Source of the DNA: Acaryochloris sp. CCMEE 5410
Lineage (GTDB): Bacteria > Cyanobacteriota > Cyanobacteriia > Thermosynechococcales > Thermosynechococcaceae
Assembly: GCF_000238775.2 (NCBI RefSeq)
Contig: NZ_AFEJ02000001.1
Location: 4,278,001 to 4,342,000 of the forward strand
Reading direction: 5' to 3'
DNA: 64,000 nucleotides
This document shows positions 12,857 through 62,569 of this stretch, one piece after another. Each line of letters begins with the position of its first letter. Position 1 is the first letter of the stretch. The notes below the pieces were generated by a model that was not told where the DNA came from, made no database searches, and worked only from the letters and a program-made list of their open reading frames with translations. The position numbers and the translations under genes are program-made.

Positions 12857-12949
12857 TTGTCTGCCGGACAGTAGGGTTGAACGGATGATCCCTTCAACCC
12901 AATTCATTTCGAAGCATATTTAGCAAGGAACAAGAGGAAGCTAATCGCG

Positions 12950-35586: not shown

Positions 35587-35590
35587 ATTA

Positions 35591-36859: not shown

Positions 36860-37009
36860 ATTTTTGTTGATAATTATTAGAAATAATTACTATGAATTGA
36901 TATAGGTAGATATAAATATGAGATAATGCATATTTGAATTAGTAGACATAAGAAAATATTGAAATAAATCAAATATTCAGAATCCATTGCTTTTGTGCCT
37001 CTAAGAAAG

Positions 37010-38302
37010 TTATAAAGTTTGTGGTTGTTTTCTAAAAGTTGTCTGCCATGATGTAGCCATTGTCACTAAATAATCACTGATACTCAATACTCCTGAAAAA
37101 ACTGCCAAATTGCCAAGGCTTATAATATTAGTGTGGAAGAAATGAATATAAAATATCCATAGAATAATACTGAAAGTTATAGTAAACATTTTTAATGTAA
37201 ATAACTGGATATTATTGCCAGTTATGATTAAAAAACTAGACCAAATACCAGCTATCCGGAATGATGCAGTAACCATAAAATAAGGTAGTAGTGCTTGTAT
37301 GTTTTGGTATTTAGGGAATATATGTATGAATCCATAATTCATAATAAGCCAAATAGCTATGCTTAGCACTGCCCAAGCACAAAATAAGATTCCAGAAATC
37401 TTTAATGATAAAAAGTAGGTGTGAACTTTACCAAAAGTTGCATTGCGACGTACTAGCATTGGAAATACAGTAGTATTGATCAAAGACTGGATCATTTGTC
37501 CAACTATCAAGATAGTTCCTGCAAATGTATAAAGTCCGAAGTCTTCTTTGTTAAAAGTATGTGATGCAATCCATCTATCAATATTAAACATCAGGAATGT
37601 CGTACTAGATGCGAGAAATAGCCAAATGGATGCCTTCCATTGGATATTTGGGAGCTTTCTTATTGCCAGATGTAATGCATGAGTAAACTTAATAGATGCG
37701 TTACGATAAACTGAAACTAGTAATCGATGGATAGTGATGATAACTACCGATGTCTCAGCCACTAATGTTAAGAAAGCTGAGCCAGTGGCACTAGCAATTA
37801 ATCCACCTACTACTATTATCCCTGATGATCTAGCTAGGTACTGTAATGAATATCGAGTAGGTTGTCCACGACTTCGGCTTTCAGTAGTAGCAATTAAAAA
37901 TATTTGCTGAACTAGTCCATGGAGTAGCCCAATTAGCATAAATTTAGTTGGAATTTCTAAAGTTAAGATGTTAGCAATAAAAATAACTAAGAAAATAAAA
38001 CATCCAGATACTGAAGAAACTATAAGACACTGACTGAGTAAAATTGCACCCGACTTTTCATGATGGCGAAGGATCATGATGGGTAAATCTCGTTGCAATA
38101 TGATTTGAAGACCAAGACAATTCAACATATTAAAAGAGCTTGAAACTAAAAGCCCAAAGCTAAATTCTCCAAAAGCTTCAAGTGATAGCAATCTTGCCAT
38201 TAATAGCGTACGAGCCATCATGATGGACATGGCTAGTAGTAGTATCGGAACATACCACAGTTTTTGGAGAGACTGTACTGAATATTTTGTGCGTAAATTC
38301 AT
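37010..38302 (-). CDS. Polysaccharide flippase-like membrane protein (Wzx type)
   Basis: 430 residues with about twelve membrane helices. The N-terminal LARLLSLEAFGEFSFGLLVS pattern (LSxxxFGxFxxxL) is typical of the polysaccharide-specific transporter/Wzx group in the MOP superfamily. It would flip the undecaprenyl-linked repeat unit across the inner membrane before polymerisation. AT-rich like the polymerase gene beside it. Confidence 0.82.
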   Translation of the reverse strand: MNLRTKYSVQSLQKLWYVPILLLAMSIMMARTLLMARLLSLEAFGEFSFGLLVSSSFNMLNCLGLQIILQRDLPIMILRHHEKSGAILLSQCLIVSSVSGCFIFLVIFIANILTLEIPTKFMLIGLLHGLVQQIFLIATTESRSRGQPTRYSLQYLARSSGIIVVGGLIASATGSAFLTLVAETSVVIITIHRLLVSVYRNASIKFTHALHLAIRKLPNIQWKASIWLFLASSTTFLMFNIDRWIASHTFNKEDFGLYTFAGTILIVGQMIQSLINTTVFPMLVRRNATFGKVHTYFLSLKISGILFCAWAVLSIAIWLIMNYGFIHIFPKYQNIQALLPYFMVTASFRIAGIWSSFLIITGNNIQLFTLKMFTITFSIILWIFYIHFFHTNIISLGNLAVFSGVLSISDYLVTMATSWQTTFRKQPQTL

Positions 38303-38473
38303 ATGTTCTTGATATATGATTCTGGTTTTATAAGAATTAAACTTTTAATAAGGAAAGAATAATTTCTTCCCAACTAATATCTTTTTTCCTTAATATATTT
38401 GATGCTCTAATTTATAAGCGGCTGAGAATTAAATACTAGAATAGTGATAGTTTTATATTGTGAATGACTAGCT

Positions 38474-38567
38474 TATAGCGGATTACATAACTATCGAAAC
38501 TACATGATCAGTTTAAAGCCTTGTTAGGAAGGTACTTGGCGTTTCCATAATTCTGAAAGCCGCTATA
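38474..38567. repeat. MITE-like 94-bp element, copy 1
   Basis: Begins TATAGCGG and ends CCGCTATA, with imperfect inverted similarity extending about 27 bp inwards (TATAGCGGATTACATAACTA against TATAGCGGCTTTCAGAATTA). A second copy of identical length lies at 59505-59598 with 5 differences in 94 bp, all transitions. No coding capacity. The ends and the TA tips are in the style of IS630/Tc1-related miniature elements. Confidence 0.85.
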
Positions 38568-38673
38568 ATAAGATCTTTTTAAGGGATCGAGTTTAGATAG
38601 AACTCATTAAAAGTTTTGTATGAAGCTACTAACTCCTTAAAGCTTGGTTGGAAAAGGCATGGAAATAATTTGG

Positions 38674-38814
38674 TTATGGTTTAGGTATTGTCCGTTGTAA
38701 AACACTGTCACTTTTCCCTGCAAACCTTAGGATATTTAAGCTCTCTTCAGTATCGATAATTTTTGAGGATTGGGTCACTCGATGAGAGACAACGGCAATT
38801 TTATTAATCACCAT
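38674..38814 (-). pseudogene. Possible remnant of an ABC-transporter ATPase C-terminus
   Basis: A 46-codon frame starting at the ATG at 38814 reads MVINKIAVVSHRVTQSSKII. It resembles the H-loop region of ABC exporter ATPases (VSHR followed by a short helix and Ile-rich strand), but no Walker A, Q-loop or signature motif is present upstream. Probably a fragment. The rest of 38568-39140 contains no gene that I can support. Confidence 0.22.
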
Positions 38815-39140
38815 CTTTGATTTTTAGGTTTATTGATGTAAATGGATCTGAGGTTAAACCAGAAATCACTAAGATTGTAAATACGTTCTATATCAGAATG
38901 AAATCAGAACATAAGTTGGATTGTGATATGAATAAGGCATACGACTTTAAATATCTCGCTTTGAAATTACCATTCATTTCTGGTCTCTTTTCGACTTTGT
39001 GATTTAGCCTATTCAGTAATTGCAATGTAGATTGTAAACAAGAATAACTTTGACATTTATAATAAAAATATTTAAATTCTAATTATAATTGAATGCTTTG
39101 TGAGATCGAATTTACTGCTTCAAATATAAATTTCAGTTGA

Positions 39141-39998
39141 TTAGCGTGGCTTTTGACAGGTGATTTTTGCTCTTACTGTGAAGATGTCAGGTTTTTCAAA
39201 ATCTTGGAATTCTTGGCTTATGACTAAGTTTTCTGGAGGCTTTTCCCTCTCGGATGAAACTTGTAGAATAATAAAATTGTTTTCTGAAAAAAGACTTATA
39301 TATTCACTATGCCTCATCCTATTGACGAAGTGGAGTGGAGTATTATGTTTAGACCAATCTTGTTCTGAATACTGTAAAAAATTAAAGGGAGAAATACTAT
39401 TGTCTGATCGCGCATAATGGTCAGAGTAGTCAATAAAATTAATGCATAGTCCTTGTGGTTTGAGTATTGTAGAAATGTCGCCAATAAGAAGACGAAGAGC
39501 ATCTCTAGGAATGTGTTCTAGTGTATCTGTCGTATAGAAGACGTCAACAGAATTGGGATGGATGTTGGCATTAGCAAGTGAAGATGGAGCAACATAGTGT
39601 ATGCCAAAATCTTCTATATCGCTAAAAGTTTTGATAGAAGGTAGGGGTACACTTAATTTTTTAGAAAGATAAGATGCAGCTTTCTGAATTAGATACGGTT
39701 TTGCTAGTGGGAATAAGTCGATACAAGTTATCTTCTCCACTCCCAACATACGTAAAGCAATTGCTAGGGCGAGATCTCGTCCAGCACCAATTTCTACATA
39801 ATGTGCTGGAGAAGATGTTTCTCTAGTATTATCGACTTCATATTTGATTTTTTTCGCAGCTATGAGTAATCTTTCAAAGATGTAATCTTTTCGAGGTATC
39901 TCCTTCGTGACATGCCTTTGGAGTCTGTATAATATGTCTTGGGATAAAGGGAAATAATTAATGATTCTGAAAGCGCTTGACTTAGTTTTCCAATGCAT
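39141..39998 (-). CDS. Class I SAM-dependent methyltransferase
   Basis: 285 residues. The SAM-binding motif I reads YVEIGAGRDLALAIALRMLG near residue 67, with acidic motif II in KITCIDLFPLAKP and motif IV-like VDVFYTTDTLEHIPRDAL near 155. The last motif (TTDTLEHIP) is that of class I methyltransferases acting on small molecules or sugars. It lies 29 bp beyond the stop of the next gene upstream (40028) on the same strand. Substrate unknown; in this cluster a sugar or nonulosonic acid is likely. Confidence 0.8.
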   Translation of the reverse strand: MHWKTKSSAFRIINYFPLSQDILYRLQRHVTKEIPRKDYIFERLLIAAKKIKYEVDNTRETSSPAHYVEIGAGRDLALAIALRMLGVEKITCIDLFPLAKPYLIQKAASYLSKKLSVPLPSIKTFSDIEDFGIHYVAPSSLANANIHPNSVDVFYTTDTLEHIPRDALRLLIGDISTILKPQGLCINFIDYSDHYARSDNSISPFNFLQYSEQDWSKHNTPLHFVNRMRHSEYISLFSENNFIILQVSSEREKPPENLVISQEFQDFEKPDIFTVRAKITCQKPR

Positions 39999-40027
39999 AT
40001 TTGATTAAGAATTATAATATGAGTAAA

Positions 40028-41641
40028 CTAAAGATCACCACGTTTAATTCTATGTCTAATAACATCGATTAAAGCGTAAAATGAGCGTCGTCTAATTGCC
40101 AAATACTCTTCTGTATCTTTCGTGCCTTTCATGGCTTGACTTCTATGATATATATCAAGCCATTTGTTTCTTTGTATCAACTCGATGAATTCTGTTTCCG
40201 CATTGTTGTTTGCAGAGTATTTAGTATCATCCGCTTTTAATTCTCCCGTTCTTAAAAGTTTTATGAGACGATTGCAATCTGCTCCTTTTTTGTAAATAAA
40301 TTTTGTTGGTGTGCGAATATTAACATAATCAACAAATTGAGGTATCCGATGGGTCATCGTATAACAGAATCTAAGAGTTTGCCTTATAATGGCCTTTTTC
40401 TGTACATCTTGCTCTGTTTCTGGTTGGTCTTTGTAGAGATACAAATTATTAAGTTGTTCGGGATTGCAGACATCAGTTCGCATTCCTGATTTTTGATAGA
40501 TTGATCCAGCTGTTGCGATTATTTGCTTTCCTAAAGCTCCAGCTTCCAATGCTGAACTTCCACTGGCGATAACAATAGCATCACTTTGTTGAATTAAACC
40601 TAATGTACTTGTTTTATCATTGCTTGAAATAGTTAAAATATTTCGTTCCTTAGCCCAATCACTATAGTATTTCTCAATATGTTGACCATCACGCTTTCCT
40701 ATCTTTTCTCCCCAATTTGGATGGCAGCGTAAAATCATGTCTTCTGACTGTAGTTTGAGGTGATTGATAATGGCATCATACGCTTCTAATTGATTTTTCC
40801 ATCCTGAACTCCAATCGGGATGCCCCCATACTTCATTCCTACTGTTTGGAATTAGCAAAATCTTGTAATCCGAATTTTCAATAGGCCATGGAACAAATTC
40901 TGATTGGGCATTATACATGCGCCATTCAGTCGTATTCTTTTTTAAAAAACGTGATGCAATATAACTAGCTGCTTTAGCGGCCTGATGTTGACTGAGTGGC
41001 TTATCTTTCCATTCCACCATTAGCTTATTAACAGAGCTTAGCCCTAAACAATTTTCATCAGGGTAAATCTGTAAACCATTACCGAACCAGGTACGTTCAA
41101 TACTCAAAACTCGAATGCCAACACTATGGGCAGCTTCAAAAATTGCTCTTGTTGCGTCTATTCGACCATTAAAAACGCAAATAGCATCTAAATTATTATT
41201 TAATATCCAGTTCTTAGCTGATGAATAAGTGATTTCAAGAATAGGATGAAGCTTTTTTGTAAGGTGATCGAACTCTAGTCCTTCATAGTCTTCATCTGAT
41301 TCAAATCGACCGAGAGTACTAGCACTAGAGTAGACCCACTCATGTGAATCTTTTGGTAACTTATGCTTCAAAGATGTATAGTCTTTGATCGATGAAACAT
41401 TATATTTTGTGTAGGAACGTATATTACCTGCACGGCACATTAAACATTCTTGCCAACTTGGTCGAATATCTCGCATCTCATGAGTATAGCAAGTGGGTAA
41501 GTCAGCCTCACAAGTTAAGAATAAAGTTTCATGTCCTGCTTCTCTTAACAACTCAGACAAGTAGAATAAGTGCTCAACATGTGGTCGCCATGAATAGATC
41601 GTTGTAAAACCAATTCGCATTTTTTTTTGTTGATTTAGCAT
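40028..41641 (-). CDS. Surface-carbohydrate biosynthesis protein, probable GT-B glycosyltransferase
   Basis: 537 residues; a second ATG at 41620 starts the conserved part MRIGFTTIYSWRPHVEHLFY. A Cys-rich N-terminal block follows: LTCEADLPTCYTHE and RPSWQECLMCRAGNIRSY (near 60-75), with a CxxC pair. The C-terminal Rossmann-like half has ILRCHPNWGEK near 305 and SDAIVIASGSSALEAGALGK near 352, like the nucleotide-sugar side of GT-B enzymes and capsule proteins. It could be the transferase using CMP-pseudaminic acid, but that is a guess from position. The tail (about 430-537) is helical. Confidence 0.65.
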   Translation of the reverse strand: MLNQQKKMRIGFTTIYSWRPHVEHLFYLSELLREAGHETLFLTCEADLPTCYTHEMRDIRPSWQECLMCRAGNIRSYTKYNVSSIKDYTSLKHKLPKDSHEWVYSSASTLGRFESDEDYEGLEFDHLTKKLHPILEITYSSAKNWILNNNLDAICVFNGRIDATRAIFEAAHSVGIRVLSIERTWFGNGLQIYPDENCLGLSSVNKLMVEWKDKPLSQHQAAKAASYIASRFLKKNTTEWRMYNAQSEFVPWPIENSDYKILLIPNSRNEVWGHPDWSSGWKNQLEAYDAIINHLKLQSEDMILRCHPNWGEKIGKRDGQHIEKYYSDWAKERNILTISSNDKTSTLGLIQQSDAIVIASGSSALEAGALGKQIIATAGSIYQKSGMRTDVCNPEQLNNLYLYKDQPETEQDVQKKAIIRQTLRFCYTMTHRIPQFVDYVNIRTPTKFIYKKGADCNRLIKLLRTGELKADDTKYSANNNAETEFIELIQRNKWLDIYHRSQAMKGTKDTEEYLAIRRRSFYALIDVIRHRIKRGDL

Positions 41642-42167: not shown

Positions 42168-42297
42168 TAGACCTTATCGGAAATAGCTGAAAGCCTTACT
42201 GGGAAAGCGTTTTATTTTTGGAGAAAAATCGGCCTCAAAGACTTACGACATAGACGTTTGAAGTTATTCTCACCCATTTTATTTCCGATAAGGTCTA
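42168..42297. repeat. MITE-like 130-bp element with 18-bp perfect terminal inverted repeats
   Basis: TAGACCTTATCGGAAATA at 42168-42185 recurs exactly inverted at 42280-42297. The outermost TA on each side could be a TA target duplication, leaving 16-bp ends GACCTTATCGGAAATA, as in TA-targeting elements. The 94-bp interior is non-coding. Confidence 0.82.
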
Positions 42298-42336: not shown

Positions 42337-43026
42337 TTAATTTTCTAGCCTTCTGCCTAAGATAAATGCTTCAGCAGCTTCGACACCAACATTTGTCCCC
42401 CGCCAACGGGACAGATATTCAACTGCTTTTAGCGATCGAGGATGAGGCCACTCCCGCATTTCTGATTCATATGCCATCAACGCCTCCAGTTTTAGATGGA
42501 GCGTATCGGAAATATTCACATACCAATTGGGCGTGAAAGTTGGGGCCGAAAAGGGCAGTTGCCATTCAGTGCTAGACGGAATCTCGAAAAATAATATCGA
42601 TTTCACTGACTGGCCAGGCAAAGGCCGACAGGCTGTCATGACTGCCTCATGAATGACACGATGATCGATATTCAGATCGCCACCATGATGTGTATAAATA
42701 ATCTCGGGGAGAAATGTATGAATAGATGTTTCAATGCTTTTGACAACATCTAATAAATCACAGCTATCCATTCGGTTATCCGGAAAACCTTCGAGTTTCG
42801 TAGAAGTGACCCCCAGAATCTCGCCAGCCTTATGGGCAGCATGCGCTAATACCGACAGCTCATCCTGCGCTTTTTCTCGATCCCGTATCACAGCTCGACT
42901 GGTCACCCCCTCAGACAGGATTAGGGTATTCACTTGATCACCAGCTTTGATATGTTTGGCGATAGTCCCCGCACATCCCAAAATCTCATCATCTGGATGG
43001 GCTGCAATCACTAAAATTGACTTCAT
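42337..43026 (-). CDS. PIG-L family deacetylase
   Basis: 229 residues. The zinc site motif AAHPDDEILG is at residues 8-17 (H10, D12, D13, E14), and the second ligand region is YTHHGGDLNIDHRVIHEAV near 115-132. PIG-L enzymes remove N-acetyl groups from GlcNAc-type sugars (GlcNAc-PI, mycothiol and bacillithiol precursors, antibiotics). Here a sugar or nonulosonic acid intermediate of the surrounding cluster is the likely substrate. First of a run of leftward genes ending at the repeats at 42.3 kb. Confidence 0.87.
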   Translation of the reverse strand: MKSILVIAAHPDDEILGCAGTIAKHIKAGDQVNTLILSEGVTSRAVIRDREKAQDELSVLAHAAHKAGEILGVTSTKLEGFPDNRMDSCDLLDVVKSIETSIHTFLPEIIYTHHGGDLNIDHRVIHEAVMTACRPLPGQSVKSILFFEIPSSTEWQLPFSAPTFTPNWYVNISDTLHLKLEALMAYESEMREWPHPRSLKAVEYLSRWRGTNVGVEAAEAFILGRRLEN

Positions 43027-43155
43027 CAGAATTGATATGAAACTTACCTAATACATTGTTAGCAGCCTAGCGAACGTTCCCTAGACATTTGAGGCCCAAA
43101 AAGACGGGAACTATAGAATATTCAAGCAAAACACCCCCAATCCTAGGAGAGAAAA

Positions 43156-43875
43156 CTATCCTATCTTTCTCAAAATGATTTCGGGTTGACGAGTGAGTGG
43201 GTTAGAGAGCACTTCAAACATGCCCGGATAATCAGCAAGGAACTCACTCAAAGCCTGGCTTTCACCTTTCCAAGTCTCAGACATACCTTCATCAAGAGCG
43301 ATCATGCCTCCTAACACCAATCGCTCACCCACAAAGTCAAGTGCTAATTTTGTTGGTTCATATAGATCAAAATCAATATAGGCAAGACTCACCAGCTTAT
43401 GAGAATTTTCATCACAAAACTGGGGTATTGTTTGCCTTGCATCTCCTATTTGTAGCTGAATTAAATTCTCAAAACCATTGGCCGTAATAATGTCTTGAAG
43501 TCTTGCTAAATTCCCGCAATATTGACCAACAAATTCTTTTGCAAGCACGCCATCTTCGTCACTAGAAACTGGCAAGCCTTCAAAGTTATCAAAAACATAA
43601 ACTTTTTTTGGAGATTGAGGAGATAATAGCCTCAACATTTTAGAGATAAAAATTGTCGTAGATCCATGCCAAGCACCAAACTCAAAAATATCTCCTGACA
43701 AGGGAAGGGTTTCTTTGATTAACTCATACTGATATATATGTCTCGCGATACAATGAGTCCCAGAGAAGAGTGGGAACTGATCTGCAACACTAAAAACTTC
43801 ATCACCATATTTACCTTTGAGGTAATCTCTGGCTTCAAAGAAAGATTTATCTTCTAAAACTCTTAAGTCTTCCAT
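43156..43875 (-). CDS. TylF/MycF-type O-methyltransferase
   Basis: About 239 residues. GDIFEFGAWHGSTTIFISKML near 65 is the SAM site, VYVFDNFEGLPVSSDEDG follows, and VSLAYIDFDLYEPTKLALDF and GGMIALDEGMSETW hold the metal and catalytic Asp residues of the TylF family, which methylate sugar hydroxyls. A first ATG at 43887 exists, but GAGG (43885-43882) is placed 6 nt before the ATG at 43875, so I prefer that start. It lies 129 bp upstream of the PIG-L gene. Confidence 0.83.
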   Translation of the reverse strand: MEDLRVLEDKSFFEARDYLKGKYGDEVFSVADQFPLFSGTHCIARHIYQYELIKETLPLSGDIFEFGAWHGSTTIFISKMLRLLSPQSPKKVYVFDNFEGLPVSSDEDGVLAKEFVGQYCGNLARLQDIITANGFENLIQLQIGDARQTIPQFCDENSHKLVSLAYIDFDLYEPTKLALDFVGERLVLGGMIALDEGMSETWKGESQALSEFLADYPGMFEVLSNPLTRQPEIILRKIG

Positions 43876-43967
43876 TGAAAACCTCATTTCATGATTTAAA
43901 GCGTCTTGATTATACCTGCTCAGCAGAGCCTACCCATATACAGAATCATCTGAGTGAATGTCAGCCT

Positions 43968-44747
43968 CTAGCATCCTTGATCAGCGCATTCTATTGCCCT
44001 TTCAAGAAGGATTTGATCTCGGGCAACGATAATTCCTTCTGGCTTGTCCATAGGACCCTCAAAAATAAATGGCGATCCATTTGCCAACCTCAAGAATCCT
44101 CCAACCTCGTTTAGAATAACGGCCACAGGAGCGATATCCCAATCCCGCACCACAACGGGCTTTATAAATAAGTCCACTGTCCCATCAGCGACTAAACAAG
44201 ATTTGAGGCCAATACTACCGGACTCATAGTAACCGGAAGCATTCATAGATGACATCAAATCTTTGACAAAACCATGTGGTTCTGGCGTATTGTCCACAAA
44301 AACAAGTCTAGATGATGACTTTAATGACTTCAACGGAGCATTATTGAGAAATGCACCTCCATTCTTTAATGCAGTCCATGTTTTATTCAAAACTGGAGCG
44401 ACAACAACACCAAAAACCGGCTCTGCATTGTCAACTAAAGCAACTTGGGAAACAAAACCACTAAACCCCCCATACCAGCTAGCAGTACCATCTATTGGAT
44501 CAATTAACCAATACCGAGTAGGTCGTGTGCTGAGATGAGCCTCATCTTCTTCAGATATAACCGGTATATCAGGATAGAGATGGCTTAATTCACTCGTTAA
44601 AAACGCATGAGCACGCCTATCTGCTTCCGTCTTAAAGTCTTGCTGAGAATGAAGATGCCGAGCATTATTATCATGACGCCAGTGAGCAACTTGCTCACTT
44701 AACGTTTGAACGACTTTAACAACATCGGTAAACACACTATTGCTCAC
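43968..44747 (-). CDS. Inositol monophosphatase family enzyme (CysQ/IMPase-like)
   Basis: 259 residues with all three metal-site motifs of the lithium-sensitive phosphatases: VISEEDEA near 59-66, YWLIDPIDGTASWYGG near 77-92 and VVRDWDIAPVAVILNEVGG near 199-217. Relatives dephosphorylate inositol phosphate, PAP or sugar phosphates. It overlaps the epimerase gene by 4 nt (ATGA), so the two are translationally coupled and should act in one pathway, most likely on a phosphorylated sugar. Confidence 0.85.
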   Translation of the reverse strand: MSNSVFTDVVKVVQTLSEQVAHWRHDNNARHLHSQQDFKTEADRRAHAFLTSELSHLYPDIPVISEEDEAHLSTRPTRYWLIDPIDGTASWYGGFSGFVSQVALVDNAEPVFGVVVAPVLNKTWTALKNGGAFLNNAPLKSLKSSSRLVFVDNTPEPHGFVKDLMSSMNASGYYESGSIGLKSCLVADGTVDLFIKPVVVRDWDIAPVAVILNEVGGFLRLANGSPFIFEGPMDKPEGIIVARDQILLERAIECADQGC

Positions 44748-45571
44748 AACATTTGTCCAAACTCTATGATTGCTTGCCTAAATGATCGACTCGGAAGAAT
44801 TCCTAATTCAGCAGCCTTATTCAAATTAAATTCAAAATCTGGATGCCCGATATCATAATCAATCAATCGTCCAAAAATGTTTTCAACTTCTTTGACAAAC
44901 CGCGAGATTGAATAAACCCCTGGATAGCCAACATTCACAGCACAAAATTGATTCGTTTCATTATCAGTTAATAATGCAATGCTTTGTGCTGCATCTTCAA
45001 CAAGCATTGCAGCCCACAAAATCGGCCTTTCTGGTAAAGATATTGCTTGTCTTTCCTTACAAGATCTAACTACGTTTGCCACCAATCCATTTTGACGAGG
45101 AGGACCAAATAGACCGGGGAGACGAACCGCAAACGCTGGGCGACCATCATTTTTGAGCATTTCTTCGCCGCTTAACTTACCTTTCCCATAAGCGGAAGTT
45201 GGATGCCCCACTTCTAATTCTGTTTTAGGTCCACTGGTCGCAGCATCATACACAGTCATTGAAGAGATGTAAATAAACGGGCACGATGAAGCTTGCAGAA
45301 CATTCCGCAACATGGCCAAGCTAACTTCAGTGGCATCAGCATCTTGATATTCTTGTTGTGTCTGAGGCACAAAAGCAGCACAGTGAATGATTTGCTCGGG
45401 CTGGAGGCGAGAAACAAGTTGGACGACCTCACCATATTGAGTCAAATCACAAGTCCAAACGTTTTGACTAGAACGTCTCCCAGTCTTATGTACGTGCTCA
45501 CCTTTAGCAATCAGCGCTTCTACAACTTTGCTCCCAAGATACCCTTGAGCACCCGTCACAAGAATAGACAT
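44744..45571 (-). CDS. NAD-dependent epimerase/dehydratase (extended SDR)
   Basis: 275 residues. The Rossmann NAD-binding motif TGAQGYLGSKVVEAL is at residues 6-20. IIHCAAFVPQTQQEY holds the central strand and ISSMTVYDAATSG the Ser. The catalytic Tyr and Lys of YxxxK are in TSAYGKGKLSGEEML near 127. The C-terminal substrate domain is short. Could be a sugar epimerase, reductase or dehydratase; the substrate is not deducible. Coupled by overlap to the phosphatase gene and 49 bp from the sialic-acid-type synthase upstream. Confidence 0.83.
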   Translation of the reverse strand: MSILVTGAQGYLGSKVVEALIAKGEHVHKTGRRSSQNVWTCDLTQYGEVVQLVSRLQPEQIIHCAAFVPQTQQEYQDADATEVSLAMLRNVLQASSCPFIYISSMTVYDAATSGPKTELEVGHPTSAYGKGKLSGEEMLKNDGRPAFAVRLPGLFGPPRQNGLVANVVRSCKERQAISLPERPILWAAMLVEDAAQSIALLTDNETNQFCAVNVGYPGVYSISRFVKEVENIFGRLIDYDIGHPDFEFNLNKAAELGILPSRSFRQAIIEFGQML

Positions 45572-45620
45572 GTTGTGGCAACGGCTTAAAAAGCCTATCT
45601 GATATCAGTTTTCACTGATA

Positions 45621-46661
45621 CTAAATCATATCCCAACTAATCCATTCATCCGCCAAAATATCTCTCTTCGCTGTTCGCCCAATCACTTGATCTCGTAAAA
45701 AAGGTGAAATTCCAGAGCCAGGTCGTTTTGTACAAAGCATCTCAACCGTGATGCGCTCTCCTTTGGAGATATCTTGAGAAGCATGTAATGAACGGCGGAC
45801 TTTTTCTGCCATTTCCATCTCTTCGGGGCGTGGTCCGTTTTTTACACCATCTCCTATCGCAGCTTCAACTAATCGAATTTGTTGGACTAAATCCTTTAAT
45901 TCATGCGGCTCAATGGCAAATGAATGATCTGGCCCAGGTAACTTCCGACTAAGCGTGAAGTGCTTTTCGAGCATACAAGCACCCAGAGCAACAGCAGCCA
46001 TGGGTACCGTGTTACCAATCGTATGATCTGAGTAGCCAGTTAACGTACGAAAAGAGGACCTCATCGTTGTCATGGCTCTCAAATTTGATAATTCAGCGGG
46101 AGCCGGATATAAAGATGTGCATTGCAATAAGATGACGTTCTCATTTCCAGCCGATCTACAGGTATCAACAGCCCGCTGGATATCCATCCAATCAGCACAC
46201 CCCGTAGAGAGGATAATGGGCTTGCCAGTTTTTGCAATATACTCAATCAGATCGAGATCAGGAAGATCGAAGGACGCAACTTTATGAGCAGTAACGCCAA
46301 TCTCTTCTAACGAATCTACTGCATCATAGTCACAGGGAGATGAGAAAAAGATGATCCCCTTGTTATTACAATAATCCTGAAATGGCTGCTGCCAGGAACG
46401 ATTCAGCTCCAGTGTTTGCAATAATCCTTGCACACTTTCACCTTCCATTAAATAGGAAGGCATTTTTGCATATTTTGATACATGACTCTCTGCCTTAAAG
46501 GTCTGGAATTTAACGGCATCGACACCAGCATCAATCGCAGCATCAATATGCTCAATCGCTAGATCAAAATCTTGATTATGATTAGACCCAATTTCAGCAA
46601 TGATAAAACACGGTTGTCCATCACCAATCAAGCGTTGTCCAACAGAAATTAAATTTTTCAA
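45621..46661 (-). CDS. pseI: NeuB/PseI-family nonulosonic acid synthase
   Basis: About 346 residues. The TIM-barrel domain opens with CFIIAEIGSNHNQDFDLAIE, includes AVKFQTFKAE, GYSDHTIGNTVPMAAVALGA and CMLEKHFTLSRKLPGPDHSF. A C-terminal SAF (antifreeze-like) domain starts near RRSLHASQDISKGERIT. The enzyme condenses phosphoenolpyruvate with a six-carbon sugar to a nine-carbon sialic-type acid. The frame is open to 46736, but that would overlap the next gene; a TTG at 46661 with GGGAGG 9 nt upstream gives MKNLISVGQRLIG. The other genes point to pseudaminic acid as product, though sequence alone could also allow legionaminic or neuraminic acid. Confidence 0.85.
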   Translation of the reverse strand: MKNLISVGQRLIGDGQPCFIIAEIGSNHNQDFDLAIEHIDAAIDAGVDAVKFQTFKAESHVSKYAKMPSYLMEGESVQGLLQTLELNRSWQQPFQDYCNNKGIIFFSSPCDYDAVDSLEEIGVTAHKVASFDLPDLDLIEYIAKTGKPIILSTGCADWMDIQRAVDTCRSAGNENVILLQCTSLYPAPAELSNLRAMTTMRSSFRTLTGYSDHTIGNTVPMAAVALGACMLEKHFTLSRKLPGPDHSFAIEPHELKDLVQQIRLVEAAIGDGVKNGPRPEEMEMAEKVRRSLHASQDISKGERITVEMLCTKRPGSGISPFLRDQVIGRTAKRDILADEWISWDMI

Positions 46662-46687
46662 ATTCTCTGTCCTCCCTGACAAGATAC

Positions 46688-47632
46688 TTACGATATTGGA
46701 ATAATTGTATTCACCCAATTTCTCTGAAGAGAACAATCTACCTTTGGAGTGAAACAGGAAGGATGCTCAAGATTCTGTTCACCGAGGAAAATTTTAACGG
46801 GATCGAACCCCGTGCTCAAAGCCAAGCAGAAAGTAGTCGATACTCTTGGATTAACTTCAAACGGCATCACTGTTGCATCATCCAATACAACACACTGGAT
46901 GTTATAAACACCAGATGGTTTAAAGTAAGACTGAAATTTGGATACATATTCAGTGATTTCAGGTACCTTTTCTGTTTTAGCTGAAATAGTAATCCCTTTT
47001 TTCTCATTAACTTTTACTGGAATAACAGCACGAAGCTGGCCATAACTATCTGCACAAACGAAAACGGTATATTCTTGCCCCTTCATATGCTCTTGCGCAA
47101 TAAAGGCACTAGCTTGTTTCTGCTGCAAGGTTAAGTAAGCTTGTACTTGTTCGATATCCTGGAGAAGCATAACACCTCGAGATCCTCGCCCTGAGCGAGG
47201 TTTCGCGATAAGTGGAAAGCCAATTTCCGCGGCATCCATAAGAGGTAATGTTCTCGGACACATCAAACCAGCAGATGCTACAGCATTAAAACAAGCCAGC
47301 TTATCTAACATTAGATCCACAAAGGCTTGTGACGGTAATAAAAACTCGGGCCAGTCTGAGTTCCCTTGCAAAGCAGATAATTGTGATAGTTCTTCATCTA
47401 CTCCTGGAACTAGTAGGTCTATATCCAGCTCTTGGCATACCTTACAAAGCGTTATGCAAAACGATAGGTCACTGGCTAAAGGGATCGATACACGGCGATC
47501 ACGAGGAATTACCGGAGTGATCGCCTGAACAGATGCATCAGCGAAATAAAGTGAATATTTATCCTTCCAAAGCTTCCAAATAGCTTCTGTCCCTGCTCCT
47601 CCTCCCCCTGTAAATAAAATATTTTTTCTCAT
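46688..47632 (-). CDS. ATP-grasp family ligase
   Basis: About 314 residues from the ATG at 47632 (the frame extends to 47716 without a better start). MRKNILFTGGGGAGTEAIWK is the N-terminal nucleotide-type fold. The ATP-grasp core has FPLIAKPRSGRGSRGVMLLQ near 125, ASAFIAQEHMKGQEYTVFV and the Mg-binding VMPFEVNPRVSTTF near 260. It is closest in style to carbamoyl-phosphate-synthase-like or PylC-like ligases that join an amine or acid using ATP. Located 26 bp upstream of the synthase. It may attach an amino acid or acyl group to a cluster sugar; the substrate is unknown. Confidence 0.8.
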   Translation of the reverse strand: MRKNILFTGGGGAGTEAIWKLWKDKYSLYFADASVQAITPVIPRDRRVSIPLASDLSFCITLCKVCQELDIDLLVPGVDEELSQLSALQGNSDWPEFLLPSQAFVDLMLDKLACFNAVASAGLMCPRTLPLMDAAEIGFPLIAKPRSGRGSRGVMLLQDIEQVQAYLTLQQKQASAFIAQEHMKGQEYTVFVCADSYGQLRAVIPVKVNEKKGITISAKTEKVPEITEYVSKFQSYFKPSGVYNIQCVVLDDATVMPFEVNPRVSTTFCLALSTGFDPVKIFLGEQNLEHPSCFTPKVDCSLQRNWVNTIIPIS

Positions 47633-47877: not shown

Positions 47878-49377
47878 CTAAGTAACTTTCCTCCTTTCAA
47901 GAACATAATGATAGGATGATGCGTTTCGCTCCTTCATGGAGAAATTAGCTTTCTCAAAAGTCTTGATAGAGGCAATATTATCAGGCTTTATATATGCATT
48001 AATCACTTCAATGATCGTTTCTCGAAAAATCAGATGAACCGCTTCCATCAGTAGCCGTGAACCATAACCAGATCCTCTCCGACCTGGAGCCAAATGAATA
48101 TCAATTTCTGCCTGGTTCGTAGCCTCCACATCAAACCTGACTTGCCCAACCGGAAGATCGTCACCATCCATGGCTATAAAAATAAAGCAATTAGGATCTT
48201 GCAACTTATGCGTGAACCATGCCACATGCTCTTCCCAAGAAATTAACTTCGAGGAAAAAGCAGACACTCTCACTTGGGGATCATTGACCCATTCCCATAA
48301 CATCTTGTCATCTGCTTGATTCGCTGTTCTTAATCTCAGGTAGTTATTTCGTAACTTCCTGACAATACGACGACTTCCTTCTCCATCTACTAACTGTCGA
48401 GCCGTATTGGAGAGCGTCTGTCTAAGATCAGATGACATTAGCAGGTTATCAACAGCATCAGTAATCGACCTTGGACTTATTGAAGAGTACCATCCTAAAT
48501 TAATTGCAGCCCCTAGATCATCCAACTTTTCTGCAACTTCAAGCTGATTATCAGCTAGAACAATAATCAAGTTCGGCAAACCTAAAAAAGCTATATCCCA
48601 GCAAGTACTACCTCCAGCAGTAACAGCGATATCAGCCCAGACAATCAGCTCTGCCATATTGCTAACATTACACTTCAAGACAATATTTAGATCTGTTTTC
48701 TGGGTAAAATCTAACAACTGCTCATAGTTTGGATTGCTACCACCAATAACAACAATAATTTCTACCTCTTGATCCTTGATGTTCTCCAAGCCTTTCAGAA
48801 CATTTAGTGTCACATTATTCGGATCAGCCCCTCCTAGGGTGACAAAGATTTTTTTTCCCTTGGTTGGGATTTCTCTCAACCAATTGCGATATCCATAAAA
48901 TTCATTCCTGATCAGCGAATACGTACAACCCAATAAAAGTTTGGTATAAGATTCCTTATGAGCGTACAGTGTTTCGCTAGCATAAACATTGGGATTAACG
49001 ATATAATCAGCCCAATAATGTTGGGCATGCCCATAATCATCAATAGCTAATAGTTGCAGCCCATTTTTTTTGATCCAGGACTGATAAGTTTCTCCAAAAT
49101 GGTAGCCATCTAGTATCATCCAGGCTGCCTTAAATACTTTAGAGAGTTCTACTGTATACACGGCATCCTCTTGACTACCTGGAACAATTGAGTCTGCCAA
49201 ATAGCGAACCTGTACTCCTTCCATTTGCAAACGATCTGCGACGGGTCGCGTACTAAGGCTTGTTAGGTAGGTTACTTGCCCTCCTTCATCCAGGCACACT
49301 TGAGCCAGAGCAAGACACCGCATTACATGACCTATACCCTGCTGACGAGAAGCATCTGCACGAATTAAAAGATGCAT
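47878..49377 (-). CDS. pseG: PseG-PseH fusion: UDP-sugar hydrolase plus N-acetyltransferase
   Basis: 499 residues, two enzymes in one chain. Residues 1 to about 340 are PseG, a GT-B-like hydrolase that frees 2,4-diacetamido-trideoxyaltrose from UDP: MHLLIRADASRQQGIGHVMR at the N-terminus and TAGGSTCWDIAFLGLPNLII near 255. Residues about 350-499 are a GNAT acetyltransferase, the place of PseH, with LRLRTANQADDKMLWEWVND and the acetyl-CoA loop GRRGSGYGSRLLMEAV. PseH acetylates the 4-amino group made by PseC, so fusion joins consecutive steps. It is followed by the methylase, with 3 bp between the genes. Confidence 0.9.
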   Translation of the reverse strand: MHLLIRADASRQQGIGHVMRCLALAQVCLDEGGQVTYLTSLSTRPVADRLQMEGVQVRYLADSIVPGSQEDAVYTVELSKVFKAAWMILDGYHFGETYQSWIKKNGLQLLAIDDYGHAQHYWADYIVNPNVYASETLYAHKESYTKLLLGCTYSLIRNEFYGYRNWLREIPTKGKKIFVTLGGADPNNVTLNVLKGLENIKDQEVEIIVVIGGSNPNYEQLLDFTQKTDLNIVLKCNVSNMAELIVWADIAVTAGGSTCWDIAFLGLPNLIIVLADNQLEVAEKLDDLGAAINLGWYSSISPRSITDAVDNLLMSSDLRQTLSNTARQLVDGEGSRRIVRKLRNNYLRLRTANQADDKMLWEWVNDPQVRVSAFSSKLISWEEHVAWFTHKLQDPNCFIFIAMDGDDLPVGQVRFDVEATNQAEIDIHLAPGRRGSGYGSRLLMEAVHLIFRETIIEVINAYIKPDNIASIKTFEKANFSMKERNASSYHYVLERRKVT

Positions 49378-49380
49378 ATC

Positions 49381-50004
49381 TCAAGTGGTCTTTTTCATCA
49401 AAAACCAAGTTGTATCATCTTGAGGAAAATTAGGATCTCTGTGATACGAAAATCCATAATCCACAAGCTTCAGATCAGGATATTTATCAAGAAGATCACC
49501 TGCGAAATCTCTCTTAAAAAGTTTATTTTCATGTCCACGATAGGTCACTTCCACGGGGACAGGGTTAAAATACTCAATCACCAGAATATATTTACAAGAT
49601 GCTTGATAAAGCAAGTTGTAAACCTTATCAATGAAGTCAGGATTTATATGAATCAAAACGCCTTTAATCAAAACCAAATCATACTCAGCTTCTGCTTGAA
49701 AATCTAGTAAAGATTGATGATAAGGTTGTACCCATTTCAGTTGTTGAAGATGCTTAATTGCTTTATCATTGATTTCCACAGCAGAAAACACTGCACTAGG
49801 CCTGAGTGTTTTCAATGCATGCAGATTCAGGCCCAGATTAGCCCCTAGTTCTAAGACACTATTGACTTGATCAGTTCGAGATAGAATTTTTGAAAAAAGG
49901 GCTATATTCGCAGCGATCGCGTCAGCACCATTGTTCCTATCAACATAATCATCGCCAAATTGTCCAGCCCAAAACACCTCTTGATCTGTTTTAAATGACC
50001 GCAT
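49381..50004 (-). CDS. Pseudaminic acid biosynthesis-associated methylase
   Basis: 207 residues. QEVFWAGQFGDDYVDRN at the N-terminus, then the SAM site VLELGANLGLNLHAL near 67 and FSAVEINDKAIKHLQQL. This N-terminal block is typical of the small methylases found almost only next to pseudaminic acid genes. It shares one base with the pseF stop (TAATG), so the two are coupled. It may O-methylate pseudaminic acid or a precursor; this step is not established for the family. Confidence 0.85.
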   Translation of the reverse strand: MRSFKTDQEVFWAGQFGDDYVDRNNGADAIAANIALFSKILSRTDQVNSVLELGANLGLNLHALKTLRPSAVFSAVEINDKAIKHLQQLKWVQPYHQSLLDFQAEAEYDLVLIKGVLIHINPDFIDKVYNLLYQASCKYILVIEYFNPVPVEVTYRGHENKLFKRDFAGDLLDKYPDLKLVDYGFSYHRDPNFPQDDTTWFLMKKTT

Positions 50005-50744
50005 TAAGTTTCACCATATGCTTTCTGTTTGATATTCGAGTTTATGCGAATCCACTCGGGATTTTGTTCATGTAGCCTTAAACAATCTTCCATAGAAAAG
50101 TACGGCAATGTAGGATATAGATTCTCCAACATCACTTTTACTAATAAAAAGTCTTCCATAGTGTCAACCGTCCATCGATGCTGGGATTGGTCTTCACAAT
50201 GCCTAACGTGCCCTATTCGATACTGTTCAGGATGTCGGTAAATATATGGTGTAACATGCTCCCTATCTGCCTTAGATGTAGCTTGAGCATGAATTTGCTT
50301 CAGTACACGGAACGAGAAAACCTCTGTATCCATCCCACGAGGATAAGTGCGTTCTAAACAATTAGCAACATAATCTTTGGCCGGCGAAGCCAGGCAGTAG
50401 GCATGAATGACTTGGTCAACCACCATTGGATCAATCAATGGACAATCTGATGTAATTCGAACAACGACATCAGCATCGAATAGTTGAGCTGATTCATAGT
50501 ATCTCGAGAGAACATCTTCCTCTGAACCTCGGTAAGAGGAGACATTTAGCTGGTTACAAAGGGTAACGATGGGATCATCAGTAAGGTTGGTTGTAGTGGC
50601 CACCACAACATCATCCGCATTACTGACTCGTTTGAGCCGTTCAAGCTGATATTCCAGTAGTGGTTTACCCAATACTTTTTTTAGAACTTTGCCGGGCAGG
50701 CGAGTTGAAGTCATGCGAGCTTGCACAACTATCAGAATTCTCAT
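50004..50744 (-). CDS. pseF: CMP-pseudaminic acid cytidylyltransferase
   Basis: 246 residues. The N-terminus IVVQARMTSTRLPGKVLKKV is the CTP-binding signature of the spore-coat SpsF/PseF cytidylyltransferases. VVRITSDCPLIDPMVVDQV near 97 holds the metal-binding Asp, and EHVTPYIYRHPEQYRIGH follows. It activates the free nonulosonic acid to the CMP form used by transferases. It overlaps pseC by 4 nt (ATGA). Confidence 0.87.
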   Translation of the reverse strand: MRILIVVQARMTSTRLPGKVLKKVLGKPLLEYQLERLKRVSNADDVVVATTTNLTDDPIVTLCNQLNVSSYRGSEEDVLSRYYESAQLFDADVVVRITSDCPLIDPMVVDQVIHAYCLASPAKDYVANCLERTYPRGMDTEVFSFRVLKQIHAQATSKADREHVTPYIYRHPEQYRIGHVRHCEDQSQHRWTVDTMEDFLLVKVMLENLYPTLPYFSMEDCLRLHEQNPEWIRINSNIKQKAYGET

Positions 50745-51907
50745 CGCACAATCGCTTTAAGTGTGTCTACAATATAGTCTTGCTGTTCAAGCGTTAATCC
50801 ATAATGCAGAGGGATGCTAATCGCCTCACTATAATACTTCTCTGCTTCAGGGAAATCCCCGCGTTGAAATCCAAGATCGGTGTAGTAAGGCTGGGTATGA
50901 ACTGGGATATAGTGAAGATTAACTCCTATATTTGCTCGTCTCAACTCTTCAAAGATCTGTCTGTGCGTCTTACTAAGCTCTGGTAACCGCAATCGAATGA
51001 CATACAAATGCCAACTAGACTCACAGTCTTTATGTTGAAGAGGAAGTTGAATGGGCAAATGAGATAGCAGCTGATTATAACGGCGAGCCAAAAATCTGCG
51101 ACGGTCAACAAACGTCTCTAGCCTATCCATCTGACTTGCACCTAACGCTGCCTGAATATCAGTCATGCGATAGTTATATCCCAGCTCAAGCTGCTGATAG
51201 TACCAGGGCCCTTCAGATATCTCCCTCATTAATCTTGGATTGCGTGTGATACCGTGCGTCCTTAAACGAGTCAGTTTTTCGAACAAATCAGTATTGTTTG
51301 TCAGGACCATTCCTCCTTCACCCGAAGTAATGATTTTCACAGGGTGAAAGCTAAAAACCGTTAAATCTGAGTATTGACACGAGCCAACTGCTTTATCACA
51401 ATACCGGGCCCCAATCGCATGAGAGGCATCTTCTAAAATTTTGATGTCATATTGCCTCGCAAGAGACGATATTATCTCCATCTGGCAGGATTGCCCTGCA
51501 AAGTGTACAGGGATAATGACTTTAGGTAATTTACCTAACTGAGCAGCCGCAGACAGTTTATTTTCTAATTGTTGAACACTGAGATTATATAGTGTCGGAT
51601 CTATATCTACGAAATCCACTGAAGCCCCACAATACAGACCACAGTTTGCAGAGGCAACAAACGTATTGGGCGAAGTCCATATAACATCGCCTTCACTTAA
51701 TCCTAGAGCCAGGCAGGAAATATGTAGGGCAGCAGTGGCACTACTGACGGCAACCGCATAACGACTCCCACAATAGTTAGCCACCAACTCTTCAAAACGT
51801 TCTATCGCTGGCCCTTGAGTAATATAATCTGATGTCAATACATCGATTACAGCATCAATATCCGCTTGATTGATATCCTGCCGACCATATGGAATAAAAT
51901 TTGACAT
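50741..51907 (-). CDS. pseC: UDP-4-keto-6-deoxy-L-altrosamine aminotransferase
   Basis: 388 residues, DegT/DnrJ family fold-type I PLP enzyme. The N-terminal MSNFIPYGRQDINQADIDAV is characteristic of PseC. The pocket includes AVSSATAALHISCLALG, IEDASHAIGARY-type segment (here ILEDASHAIGARYCDKAV), and the PLP lysine in FSFHPVKIITSGEGGMV near 188. It adds an amino group at C4 of the PseB product using glutamate. 10 bp from pseB. Confidence 0.9.
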   Translation of the reverse strand: MSNFIPYGRQDINQADIDAVIDVLTSDYITQGPAIERFEELVANYCGSRYAVAVSSATAALHISCLALGLSEGDVIWTSPNTFVASANCGLYCGASVDFVDIDPTLYNLSVQQLENKLSAAAQLGKLPKVIIPVHFAGQSCQMEIISSLARQYDIKILEDASHAIGARYCDKAVGSCQYSDLTVFSFHPVKIITSGEGGMVLTNNTDLFEKLTRLRTHGITRNPRLMREISEGPWYYQQLELGYNYRMTDIQAALGASQMDRLETFVDRRRFLARRYNQLLSHLPIQLPLQHKDCESSWHLYVIRLRLPELSKTHRQIFEELRRANIGVNLHYIPVHTQPYYTDLGFQRGDFPEAEKYYSEAISIPLHYGLTLEQQDYIVDTLKAIVR

Positions 51908-51917
51908 TAGCTATAAA

Positions 51918-52934
51918 TTATGCTGTAAAACTAGGATCTACATGTTTCTGAATTAGAGACTGTATCTCAGAAATGGTAAGAAAGTGGTTGTTATCTCCAG
52001 AGTTATAGCTAAAACCTACCGGAACAAGTTCAGCACCCGTCAATTGGCAATACTCTTCTAAGGTGTAATTCATGTTGACAGGAAGAATCGCAAAATAGTC
52101 ACCAACCTTTACGGTAGAAGTTGAATCAGAGGTCGTGATTAATTCCTCATGAATTTTCTCACCTGGTCTCAAGCCGATAATTGTATGCTTACATTGAGGT
52201 CCAATCGCCTTGGCAATATCTGTGACACGATATGAAGGCATCTTAGGCACAAGTATCTCCCCACCTCTAGAATTCTCGATTGACCAAAGTACCATCTCAA
52301 CCCCCTCTTCAAGAGAGATATTGAAGCGAGTCATCTGTGGATCAGTAATCGGTAAGATGCCTTCATGACGTTTTTTTAGAAAAAACGGTATCACCGAACC
52401 CCGAGATCCCATAACGTTCCCATAGCGGACGACGCTAAAGGTTAAATCGCGGTTCCCTTTGATGTTATTGGCTGCTATGAATAATTTGTCGGAGCATAGT
52501 TTGGTGGCTCCATATAGATTAATGGGAGCTGCAGCTTTATCTGTCGAAAGAGCAATTACTTGCTTGACTTGTGTATTAAGAGCTGATTGGATGACATTCT
52601 CTGCACCCAGAACATTAGTTTTGATACACTCCATTGGATTGTATTCTGCGGTAGGAACTTGCTTCAATGCTGCTGCATGAATGACGATGTCAATGCCTTC
52701 AAAAGCTAACATTAAGCGTTGATTATCTCGGATATCCCCTATGAAATATCTAATTCCTGGGTAGTTTTGGCTTGAGTATTGCTGCGCCATTTCATATTGC
52801 TTAAGCTCATCTCGAGAATAAATTACAAGACGTCTTATATTTGGAAACTGGCTTAAAATAATGTCTACAAATTTCTTTCCGAAAGATCCAGTTCCTCCTG
52901 TGATTAAGAGAGAGCTGTTTTCATTTATAACCAT
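51918..52934 (-). CDS. pseB: UDP-GlcNAc 4,6-dehydratase (inverting)
   Basis: 338 residues, extended SDR. The NADP-binding motif LLITGGTGSFGKKFV is at residues 9-23. VIHAAALKQVPTAEYNP and IALSTDKAAAPINLYGATK (Ser/Thr, Tyr and Lys of the active site, YxxxK) follow. It catalyses dehydration with C5 inversion, the first committed step of pseudaminic acid synthesis. It heads the tightly spaced pseB-pseC-pseF-methylase run. Compare the CapD-type protein at 57-59 kb, which has Met in place of this Tyr. Confidence 0.92.
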   Translation of the reverse strand: MVINENSSLLITGGTGSFGKKFVDIILSQFPNIRRLVIYSRDELKQYEMAQQYSSQNYPGIRYFIGDIRDNQRLMLAFEGIDIVIHAAALKQVPTAEYNPMECIKTNVLGAENVIQSALNTQVKQVIALSTDKAAAPINLYGATKLCSDKLFIAANNIKGNRDLTFSVVRYGNVMGSRGSVIPFFLKKRHEGILPITDPQMTRFNISLEEGVEMVLWSIENSRGGEILVPKMPSYRVTDIAKAIGPQCKHTIIGLRPGEKIHEELITTSDSTSTVKVGDYFAILPVNMNYTLEEYCQLTGAELVPVGFSYNSGDNNHFLTISEIQSLIQKHVDPSFTA

Positions 52935-62413: not shown

Positions 62414-62498
62414 TGTTGCCAATGGCAAGGGCTGGTTCAGGAGATACAACATGCTCCCTACTAGGATAGGAGAGCCCTGAACGCAGATATATATACAA

Positions 62499-62533
62499 AA
62501 ACGAGCTGCTACAGAACAGTTAGCAGCTCGTTT
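62499..62533 (-). terminator. Terminator of the rplU-rpmA operon
   Basis: AAACGAGCTGCT (62499-62510) and AGCAGCTCGTTT (62522-62533) form a 12-bp perfect stem with an 11-nt loop, 36 bp beyond the rpmA stop. Read leftward, the stem is followed by a short T-run. Confidence 0.85.
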
Positions 62534-62569
62534 ATTCAATGCTAAAAGTGCTTTTAATCAAGCGCAATT

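Follow-up and report, generated by a model that had tools for sequence, protein, structure and literature searches.

Six genes in a row on the minus strand of Acaryochloris sp. CCMEE 5410 code for a PIG-L de-N-acetylase, a TylF-family O-methyltransferase, an IMPase/CysQ-like phosphatase, a short-chain dehydrogenase/reductase (SDR), a synthase of the NeuB family and an ATP-grasp ligase. They belong to the window, the whole stretch of 64,000 nucleotides that was analysed (contig NZ_AFEJ02000001.1, positions 4,278,001 to 4,342,000). The 8.09-Mb chromosome is cyanobacterial by its gene content: the genome encodes PsaA and PsaB, and the window has the split rpoC1 of cyanobacteria. An earlier, sequence-only reading of the window had singled out these genes. 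All six are present with their families intact, and the 4-nt overlap it described between the phosphatase gene and the SDR ('epimerase') gene is found at 44744-44747. The set is real but does not make up the whole operon, which reaches upstream on the same strand through a PseG-PseH fusion, a TIGR03587 methylase, a cytidine monophosphate (CMP)-nonulosonate synthetase and PseC to PseB (Table 1). Because the genes for pseudaminic acid (Pse) synthesis lie directly upstream, and genes for Wzx- and Wzy-like proteins and a glycosyltransferase downstream, the six genes form the distal end of an operon of the pseudaminic type, itself part of a locus for surface polysaccharide. The operon probably makes a CMP-activated nonulosonic acid (NulO) of the pseudaminic type, whose N-acetylglucosamine (GlcNAc)-derived amide at N5 is exchanged.

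Table 1. Genes of the operon and its downstream neighbourhood, with positions in the window
Gene product	Position	Strand	Family evidence
PseB, UDP-GlcNAc 4,6-dehydratase (5-inverting)	51918..52934	-	TIGR03589 498 bits, cut-off 408; nearest relative cyanobacterial, 71%
PseC aminotransferase	50741..51907	-	TIGR03588 556 bits, cut-off 423; nearest relative cyanobacterial, 72%
CMP-nonulosonate synthetase, SpsF-like CTP_transf_3, probable PseF role	50004..50744	-	PF02348 114 bits; TIGR03584 PseF only 24 bits
Pseudaminic-acid-associated methylase	49381..50004	-	TIGR03587 290 bits, cut-off 112
PseG-PseH fusion (UDP-sugar hydrolase and N4-acetyltransferase)	47878..49377	-	TIGR03590 225 bits, above cut-off; PseH 54 bits, below cut-off 93
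ATP-grasp carboxylate-amine ligase, PRK12767-type, proposed re-acylating enzyme	46688..47632	-	PF02655/PF15632
NeuB-family nonulosonate synthase with SAF domain, distinct clade	45621..~46661	-	PF03102 293 bits and SAF
Extended SDR, RmlD-like	44744..45571	-	PF01370/PF04321; Y128/K132 intact
IMPase/CysQ-like phosphatase	43968..44747	-	PF00459 133 bits; motifs invariant
TylF-family O-methyltransferase, sugar-methyltransferase-like	43156..43887	-	PF05711
PIG-L de-N-acetylase	42337..43026	-	PF02585 86 bits
Polysaccharide genes: glycosyltransferase, Wzy-like polymerase, Wzx-like flippase, methyltransferase-like protein, 537-residue protein without assigned family	34828..41641	-	

The spacing of the operon is tight, apart from 245 nt between the PseG-PseH and ATP-grasp genes and 129 nt between the TylF and PIG-L genes. 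The start of the NeuB gene is a TTG codon at about 46661, the mechanically called reading frame running to 46736. PseB, PseC and PseG are assigned by NCBIfam models above their cut-offs; the PseH domain scores lower, but is fused to PseG. The TIGR03587 methylase is also found in Pse loci of cyanobacteria that have neither ATP-grasp nor PIG-L, and the downstream 537-residue protein has homologs in other NulO loci.

The PIG-L protein has the AHPDDE and DLNxDH motifs intact and invariant His10, Asp12, Asp13 and His122, which place it in the PIG-L/LmbE family; it is a distant relative of BshB. Its nearest relative (66.7% identity) adjoins a formyltransferase in a cyanobacterial Pse locus; PIG-L relationships are given here by identity only, and the PIG-L tree is poorly resolved. 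In the ATP-grasp protein Lys144 and the EVNPR motif are intact, and Lys111, Lys144, Glu259, Asn261 and Arg263 are invariant among 10 homologs. Its AlphaFold2 model (predicted local distance difference test score 91.4) matches Protein Data Bank entry 2pn1 with a Z score of 28.2 over 275 residues. The fold, the invariant ATP/Mg residues and the PF02655 match put the protein in the ligase family, and its fold neighbours (2pn1, the GAR synthetase PurD, biotin carboxylase and PylC) comprise amide ligases and carboxylases. The SDR retains its GxxGxxG and YxxxK motifs and the phosphatase, which is of the IMPase/CysQ-like and not the HAD type, its DPIDGT and WD motifs. The best solved relative of TylF is CalS11, a TDP-rhamnose 3'-O-methyltransferase.

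Pairing of PIG-L with N-acylating enzymes

The survey comprised 78 NeuB loci, most of them from cyanobacteria and none shorter than 9 kb, and used profiles built from the loci themselves; in L029-L031 the formyltransferase was identified by Pfam. The loci are related by descent and the thresholds were chosen in this analysis, and the p-values are descriptive. PIG-L is present in 19 of the 78 loci, together with a formyltransferase in 12, with the ATP-grasp protein in six, never with both, and with neither in one (L034). A formyltransferase or ATP-grasp protein is found in only four of the 59 loci without PIG-L (Fisher p = 6e-13 over the 78 loci). The N-acylating enzymes (PseH, formyltransferase and ATP-grasp) were also counted in the Pse-type loci. 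Exactly two occur in 15 of the 16 loci that have PIG-L, compared to one in 11, two in five and none in three of the 19 loci that lack it (p = 9e-5). In three PIG-L loci PseH is absent and the two enzymes are both formyltransferases. L032 and L085, both without PIG-L, contain a distant ATP-grasp protein where PseH is missing. These counts are as expected if one acylating enzyme serves the PseC amine (N7) and PIG-L frees a second, the GlcNAc-derived N5.

Around the operon, the loci L088 and L089 share 96-98% identity. A 1.42-kb insert in L088 (10692-12113, compared to 10695-10697 in L089) consists of exactly PIG-L and a formyltransferase, beside PseI, and the PseI proteins of the two loci are identical. 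Such a clean presence and absence next to an unchanged PseI indicates that PIG-L and the formyltransferase move as a pair and need no altered synthase. The acylating enzymes also occur in fusions: PseH with ATP-grasp (L003, 4377-5906), a GNAT domain with a distant ATP-grasp homolog (L082, 6513-8102) and PseG with a formyltransferase (L079, 6717-8468).

The genomic pairing and the enzyme counts thus support a deacetylase and a re-acylating enzyme that would act on N5 of the NulO. One of the two options in the sequence-only reading, tailoring of pseudaminic acid by deacetylation, ATP-grasp amide formation and O-methylation, is supported by these comparative data, by L088/L089 and by the PseH-ATP-grasp fusions in its first two steps; the O-methylation may also occur.

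The extra genes might have nothing to do with the NulO and serve to tailor other surface sugars, but this seems quite improbable. Polysaccharide loci often contain methyltransferases and deacetylases, and TylF is poorly conserved in the module; however, the same companions are found across different phyla, the genes are fused, and PIG-L is exclusive in its choice of partner. It is possible, although rather unlikely, that the exchange precedes condensation, PIG-L and ATP-grasp acting on the hexose or the UDP-hexose and the NeuB protein belonging to a clade adapted to a bulkier N-acyl hexose. The PseH-ATP-grasp fusion in L003, the constant PseG-PseH-ATP-grasp neighbourhood and the restriction of this NeuB clade to most loci with ATP-grasp and PIG-L would all fit such an order. 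It is harder to reconcile with L052, where PIG-L, ATP-grasp and IMPase accompany a canonical PseI, and with L088/L089, where the same PseI occurs with and without the inserted pair, as fits action after PseI.

Several observations weigh against the exchange of the N5 acyl group. The ATP-grasp homologs in L032, L082 and L085 share no more than 19-22% identity with that of the window, PIG-L stands without either partner in L034, and two acylating enzymes occur in five loci that lack PIG-L. The kinship of the loci means that the p-values overstate their independence. The top fold neighbours of the ATP-grasp model are functionally mixed, so the acid substrate cannot be read from the fold. The choice of N5 rather than N7 follows from pathway logic, and the divergence of the synthase, described below, means that the NulO skeleton itself may differ.

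L034 (5521-14120) is a Pse locus with PIG-L and a WbqC-family protein, and its NeuB fails the PseI cut-off with 230 bits. No formyltransferase, ATP-grasp or PseH was found in this locus, the single exception to the pairing rule.

The synthase and its SDR companion

The NeuB proteins of the window, L003, L004, L005 and L057 form a clade of five (support 100/100) that lies outside the 35-member PseI clade (100/100). The window protein scores 317 bits with the PseI model TIGR03586 (cut-off 340) and 367 bits with the NeuB/NnaB model TIGR03569 (cut-off 399.65), below both cut-offs. The clade as a whole spans 311-317 bits with the PseI model and 346-367 bits with the NeuB model, compared to 413-510 bits with the PseI model for other cyanobacterial PseI proteins. 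The catalytic residues are kept; near the active site there are Cys112 and Asp134 (numbering of the Neisseria enzyme), where PseI has Phe and Glu. The SDR may be a partner of either this clade or the ATP-grasp subfamily. Scores of 290-420 bits are confined to the clade's loci and L050, other loci reaching no more than 66 bits, and the SDR accompanies the clade in 5/5 loci and this ATP-grasp subfamily in 6/6. A separate cyanobacterial group (L098, L099, L100, L109, L114-L116, L120 and L122) has NeuB-containing proteins of about 750-770 residues, with no Pse-specific genes scoring nearby.

A search of the genome with PF03102 found one strong NeuB, the other match having an E value of 3.8e-6. Since this is the only true NeuB in the genome, PseB, PseC, PseG and PseH of the operon must use it as their synthase, and it can act as a Pse synthase without being a member of the PseI family. 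PF02348 matched the CMP-synthetase of the operon and one other protein, KdsB, whose gene forms an operon with kdsA and kdsC, the last coding for a HAD phosphatase of that operon. The second option in the sequence-only reading was a separate sialic-type (Neu/Kdn) pathway through a 9-phosphate that requires the phosphatase. This route would call for an extra NeuB/CMP-synthetase set and a HAD 9-phosphatase beside the Pse genes, and no second NeuB/CMP-synthetase set was found in the genome. In its favour, the NeuB model gives this synthase a higher score than the PseI model does, even if below the cut-off, and the phosphatase gene overlaps the SDR gene. Nevertheless, with a single NeuB, a second CMP-synthetase that is KdsB beside KdsA and KdsC, a phosphatase that is not of the HAD type, the Pse-specific PseB, PseC and PseG in the same operon, and a phosphatase that in L052 accompanies canonical PseI, this pathway is highly improbable and was rejected.

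A more serious alternative, although still a doubtful one, is that the SDR acts with the unusual NeuB to give a NulO stereoisomer or skeleton different from the product of PseB, PseC, PseH and PseG, the SDR epimerising or oxidising/reducing the hexose before condensation, and that acyl exchange is secondary. The separation of the clade from PseI, its scores under both cut-offs and the two replaced residues agree with this, as does the SDR ortholog present in all five loci of the clade and missing from 20 kb of L052, where PseI is canonical. However, the catalytic residues are conserved, divergence alone is no proof of a new substrate, and in L050 the SDR and ATP-grasp genes stand beside a different NeuB, so that the SDR may track ATP-grasp. 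The fuller version, in which the SDR and the NeuB clade make a new skeleton or stereochemistry to which PIG-L and ATP-grasp add a non-acetyl acyl group, is unlikely; the result would be a new sialic-type sugar, and its synthase would belong to a class apart from PseI, LegI and NeuB. A role in 8-epimerisation was also considered. In Acinetobacter this reaction is ascribed to EpaA, in which a CTP_transf_3 domain is fused to an aldo/keto reductase, and to EpaB, an SDR of the adh_short family (PMC12053666). The SDR of the window matches the RmlD and Epimerase families and not adh_short, and there is no direct match to this system, though a similar role may yet apply.

Distribution and origin of the module

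In a NeuB-centred search of GTDB contigs, the ATP-grasp, NeuB, SDR, IMPase and PIG-L genes were found in that order in two alphaproteobacterial loci, L003 (a Stappia metagenome-assembled genome, MAG) and L004 (Pinisolibacter), and without IMPase in L005, an alphaproteobacterial MAG. The NeuB proteins of these loci are 60-67% identical to that of the window. In the alphaproteobacterial genome G783 the five genes lie scattered across about 26 kb (L051, L056 and L057). L052 (genome G446) combines PseB, PseC, PseG-PseH, ATP-grasp, IMPase and PIG-L with a canonical PseI (493 bits with TIGR03586), and no SDR ortholog was found in the 20 kb of this locus that were seen. TylF is the least conserved part of the module, and recurs next to it only in L005, as a 36% homolog between ATP-grasp and NeuB.

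Because five of the six genes recur together in another phylum, the module is more than a chance association. The ATP-grasp gene is rare: it was found in 1/386 cyanobacteria (the window itself), in 4/385 genomes of an alphaproteobacterial class sample (query genomes included) and in 1/398 genomes of a phylum-wide sample (the query genome). Scans of plasmid and phage GenBank records gave no orthologs. Homologs scattered without NeuB, which the sequence-only reading had named as speaking against a unit, were looked for in the sampled genomes and not seen. ATP-grasp, NeuB, SDR, IMPase and PIG-L are a conserved but rare unit, which divides best into an N-acyl-exchange part (PIG-L, ATP-grasp and probably IMPase) and a part formed by the SDR and the unusual NeuB.

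Some of the related loci have features of their own. L050 (IMG/VR contig IMGVR_UViG_3300009285_000718) is a phage contig with terminase, portal and head genes. Between its terminase and portal genes (2996-8511) there are genes for a PseB-like protein, ATP-grasp (41% identical to that of the window), an SDR, a divergent NeuB, a Gfo/Idh oxidoreductase and a CMP-synthetase; a second copy of this cassette was not found in the viral collection or in phage GenBank records. L005 carries genes for imidazole-glycerol-phosphate-synthase-like HisH and HisF proteins within the module locus (3359-6117). This HisF has in one frame an extra C-terminal region, sugar amidotransferase-like by eye, and the pair suggests an added acetamidino-type modification there. 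In L052 a CMP-synthetase is fused with a class-III aminotransferase (11650-13674).

The operon appears to be chimeric. Among the loci fetched, the best relatives of PseB, PseC, the CMP-synthetase, the methylase, PseG-PseH and PIG-L are cyanobacterial (46-72%). The contiguous ATP-grasp, NeuB, SDR, IMPase and TylF are closest to alphaproteobacteria (36-67%), their best cyanobacterial matches reaching 24-42%. By nearest relative, these five genes form one block, and PIG-L groups with the surrounding cyanobacterial Pse genes. Cyanobacterial relatives such as L031 and L088 have PseH followed by the formyltransferase, PIG-L and PseI. The window has a block of about 4.5 kb between PseG-PseH and PIG-L, and PseI is gone. 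The simplest reading is a lateral replacement of the formyltransferase and PseI by the block from ATP-grasp to TylF, and the enzyme set was apparently acquired in part from proteobacteria.

Putative mobile elements lie around the locus. A 130-bp element just downstream of PIG-L (42168-42297) resembles a miniature inverted-repeat transposable element, and its terminal inverted repeats are 18 nt long and perfect (TAGACCTTATCGGAAATA). The 17-nt end of this element has 29 matches genome-wide, mostly paired at constant spacing. The two flanks of the polysaccharide region (33613-34665 and 55701-57002) hold, on one side, an IS4-type transposase gene and, on the other, what look like broken transposase frames, as read from the open reading frames. 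Between these flanks the G+C content falls from about 0.48 to 0.32-0.43. Further along the window (61628-62539) there is a protein of the (R)-S-adenosyl-L-methionine hydrolase family that scores under the curated cut-off.

Proposed pathway and its precedents

By their families, PseB, PseC, PseH and PseG would make a 2,4-diacetamido-6-deoxy-hexose in the ordinary way. The NeuB-family enzyme, as the only NeuB, would condense this hexose with phosphoenolpyruvate. Comparative genomics suggests that PIG-L then hydrolyses the N5 acetyl group, and that the ATP-grasp enzyme converts a carboxylic acid to its acyl phosphate and couples this to the amine set free, the N7 acetyl from PseH being retained. 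The phosphatase might dephosphorylate the ligated acid or its precursor, and TylF might O-methylate the acid or the sugar; with two methyltransferases in the operon, an O-methylated acid or sugar is plausible. The group added might be glyceroyl or O-methylglyceroyl, like that carried by Campylobacter pseudaminic acid, or, with equal likelihood, an amino acid. A step specific to the loci with the unusual NeuB would fall to the SDR. The product probably enters the surface polysaccharide encoded downstream.

The window resembles the canonical PseB-C-H-G-I-F pathway of Campylobacter and Helicobacter in having PseB, PseC, PseG with a fused PseH-like domain, one NeuB-family synthase and a CMP-synthetase. 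It differs in that the synthase lies outside the PseI clade, the CMP-synthetase is SpsF-like and there are five extra enzymes. The cyanobacterial Pse loci with PIG-L and a formyltransferase (L031, L088 and others) share the PIG-L family, at up to 66.7% identity, and the operon setting, but in place of ATP-grasp they would re-acylate with a formyltransferase, and their synthase is a canonical PseI and not the unusual NeuB. In the synthesis of mycothiol and bacillithiol (MshB/MshC and BshB/BshC), a PIG-L enzyme bares the amine of an amino sugar and a second enzyme acylates it; the division of labour is alike, whereas the sugar and the acylating enzyme are different.

The proposed chemistry has precedents. 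Campylobacter jejuni makes 7-acetamido-5-(2,3-di-O-methylglyceroyl)amino-Pse, for which an oxonium ion at m/z 391 is reported, and Cj1295 has been proposed to cleave its C5 acetamido group (PMC3068675). By analogy the window would likewise swap the C5 acetamido group for another acid and add O-methylation, but Cj1295 is aminopeptidase-like, while the window has PIG-L and an ATP-grasp ligase. Halorubrum has 5-N-formyl-legionaminic acid, for which a nearby formyltransferase was proposed and the deacetylation step left unexplained (PMC6137143). Pseudoalteromonas has 7-formamido-Pse (PMC3210612), and the peptidyl-amido sugar of Clostridium difficile flagellin requires an ATP-grasp gene (PMC5207246). 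The sfmABCDE genes of Shewanella oneidensis encode a PseI-like protein (SfmA), an SDR-type protein (SfmC), a methyltransferase (SfmD) and an ATP-grasp protein (SfmE), and its 274-Da NulO receives an O-methylated group (PMC3765264). By description this combination is similar to that of the window, but it includes a thiamine pyrophosphate enzyme, its ATP-grasp protein is of the ATP-grasp_4 subfamily, and no PIG-L or IMPase is described.

The exchange of a 5-N-acyl group is thus known from Campylobacter, with other enzymes. The combination of PIG-L with ATP-grasp, and with IMPase, may be new. No description of PIG-L and ATP-grasp with pseudaminic acid was found in the open-access literature, a search with most subscription journals outside its scope and no proof of absence; nor was a paper found there on a carbamoyl-phosphate-synthase-like protein and IMPase with legionaminic acid.

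If the proposed exchange is correct, both amides of pseudaminic-type sugars would be chosen by an enzyme logic that can be read in the genes. N7 would be set by replacing PseH with a formyltransferase or ATP-grasp, and N5, which comes from GlcNAc, by the PIG-L deacetylase and a second acylating enzyme. The N-acyl patterns of bacterial NulOs could then be predicted from gene content, and PIG-L would be a candidate enzyme type for the 5-N-formyl and 5-N-acyl NulOs whose deacetylation was unexplained or, as with Cj1295, only proposed. The L088/L089 pair makes this amide rule directly testable. The NeuB clade is flagged as a NulO synthase group of interest, and the chance that the synthase makes something new together with the SDR is modest. 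For Acaryochloris, the operon would probably provide a custom surface sugar, in which one acetyl group of pseudaminic acid is replaced by a different acid.

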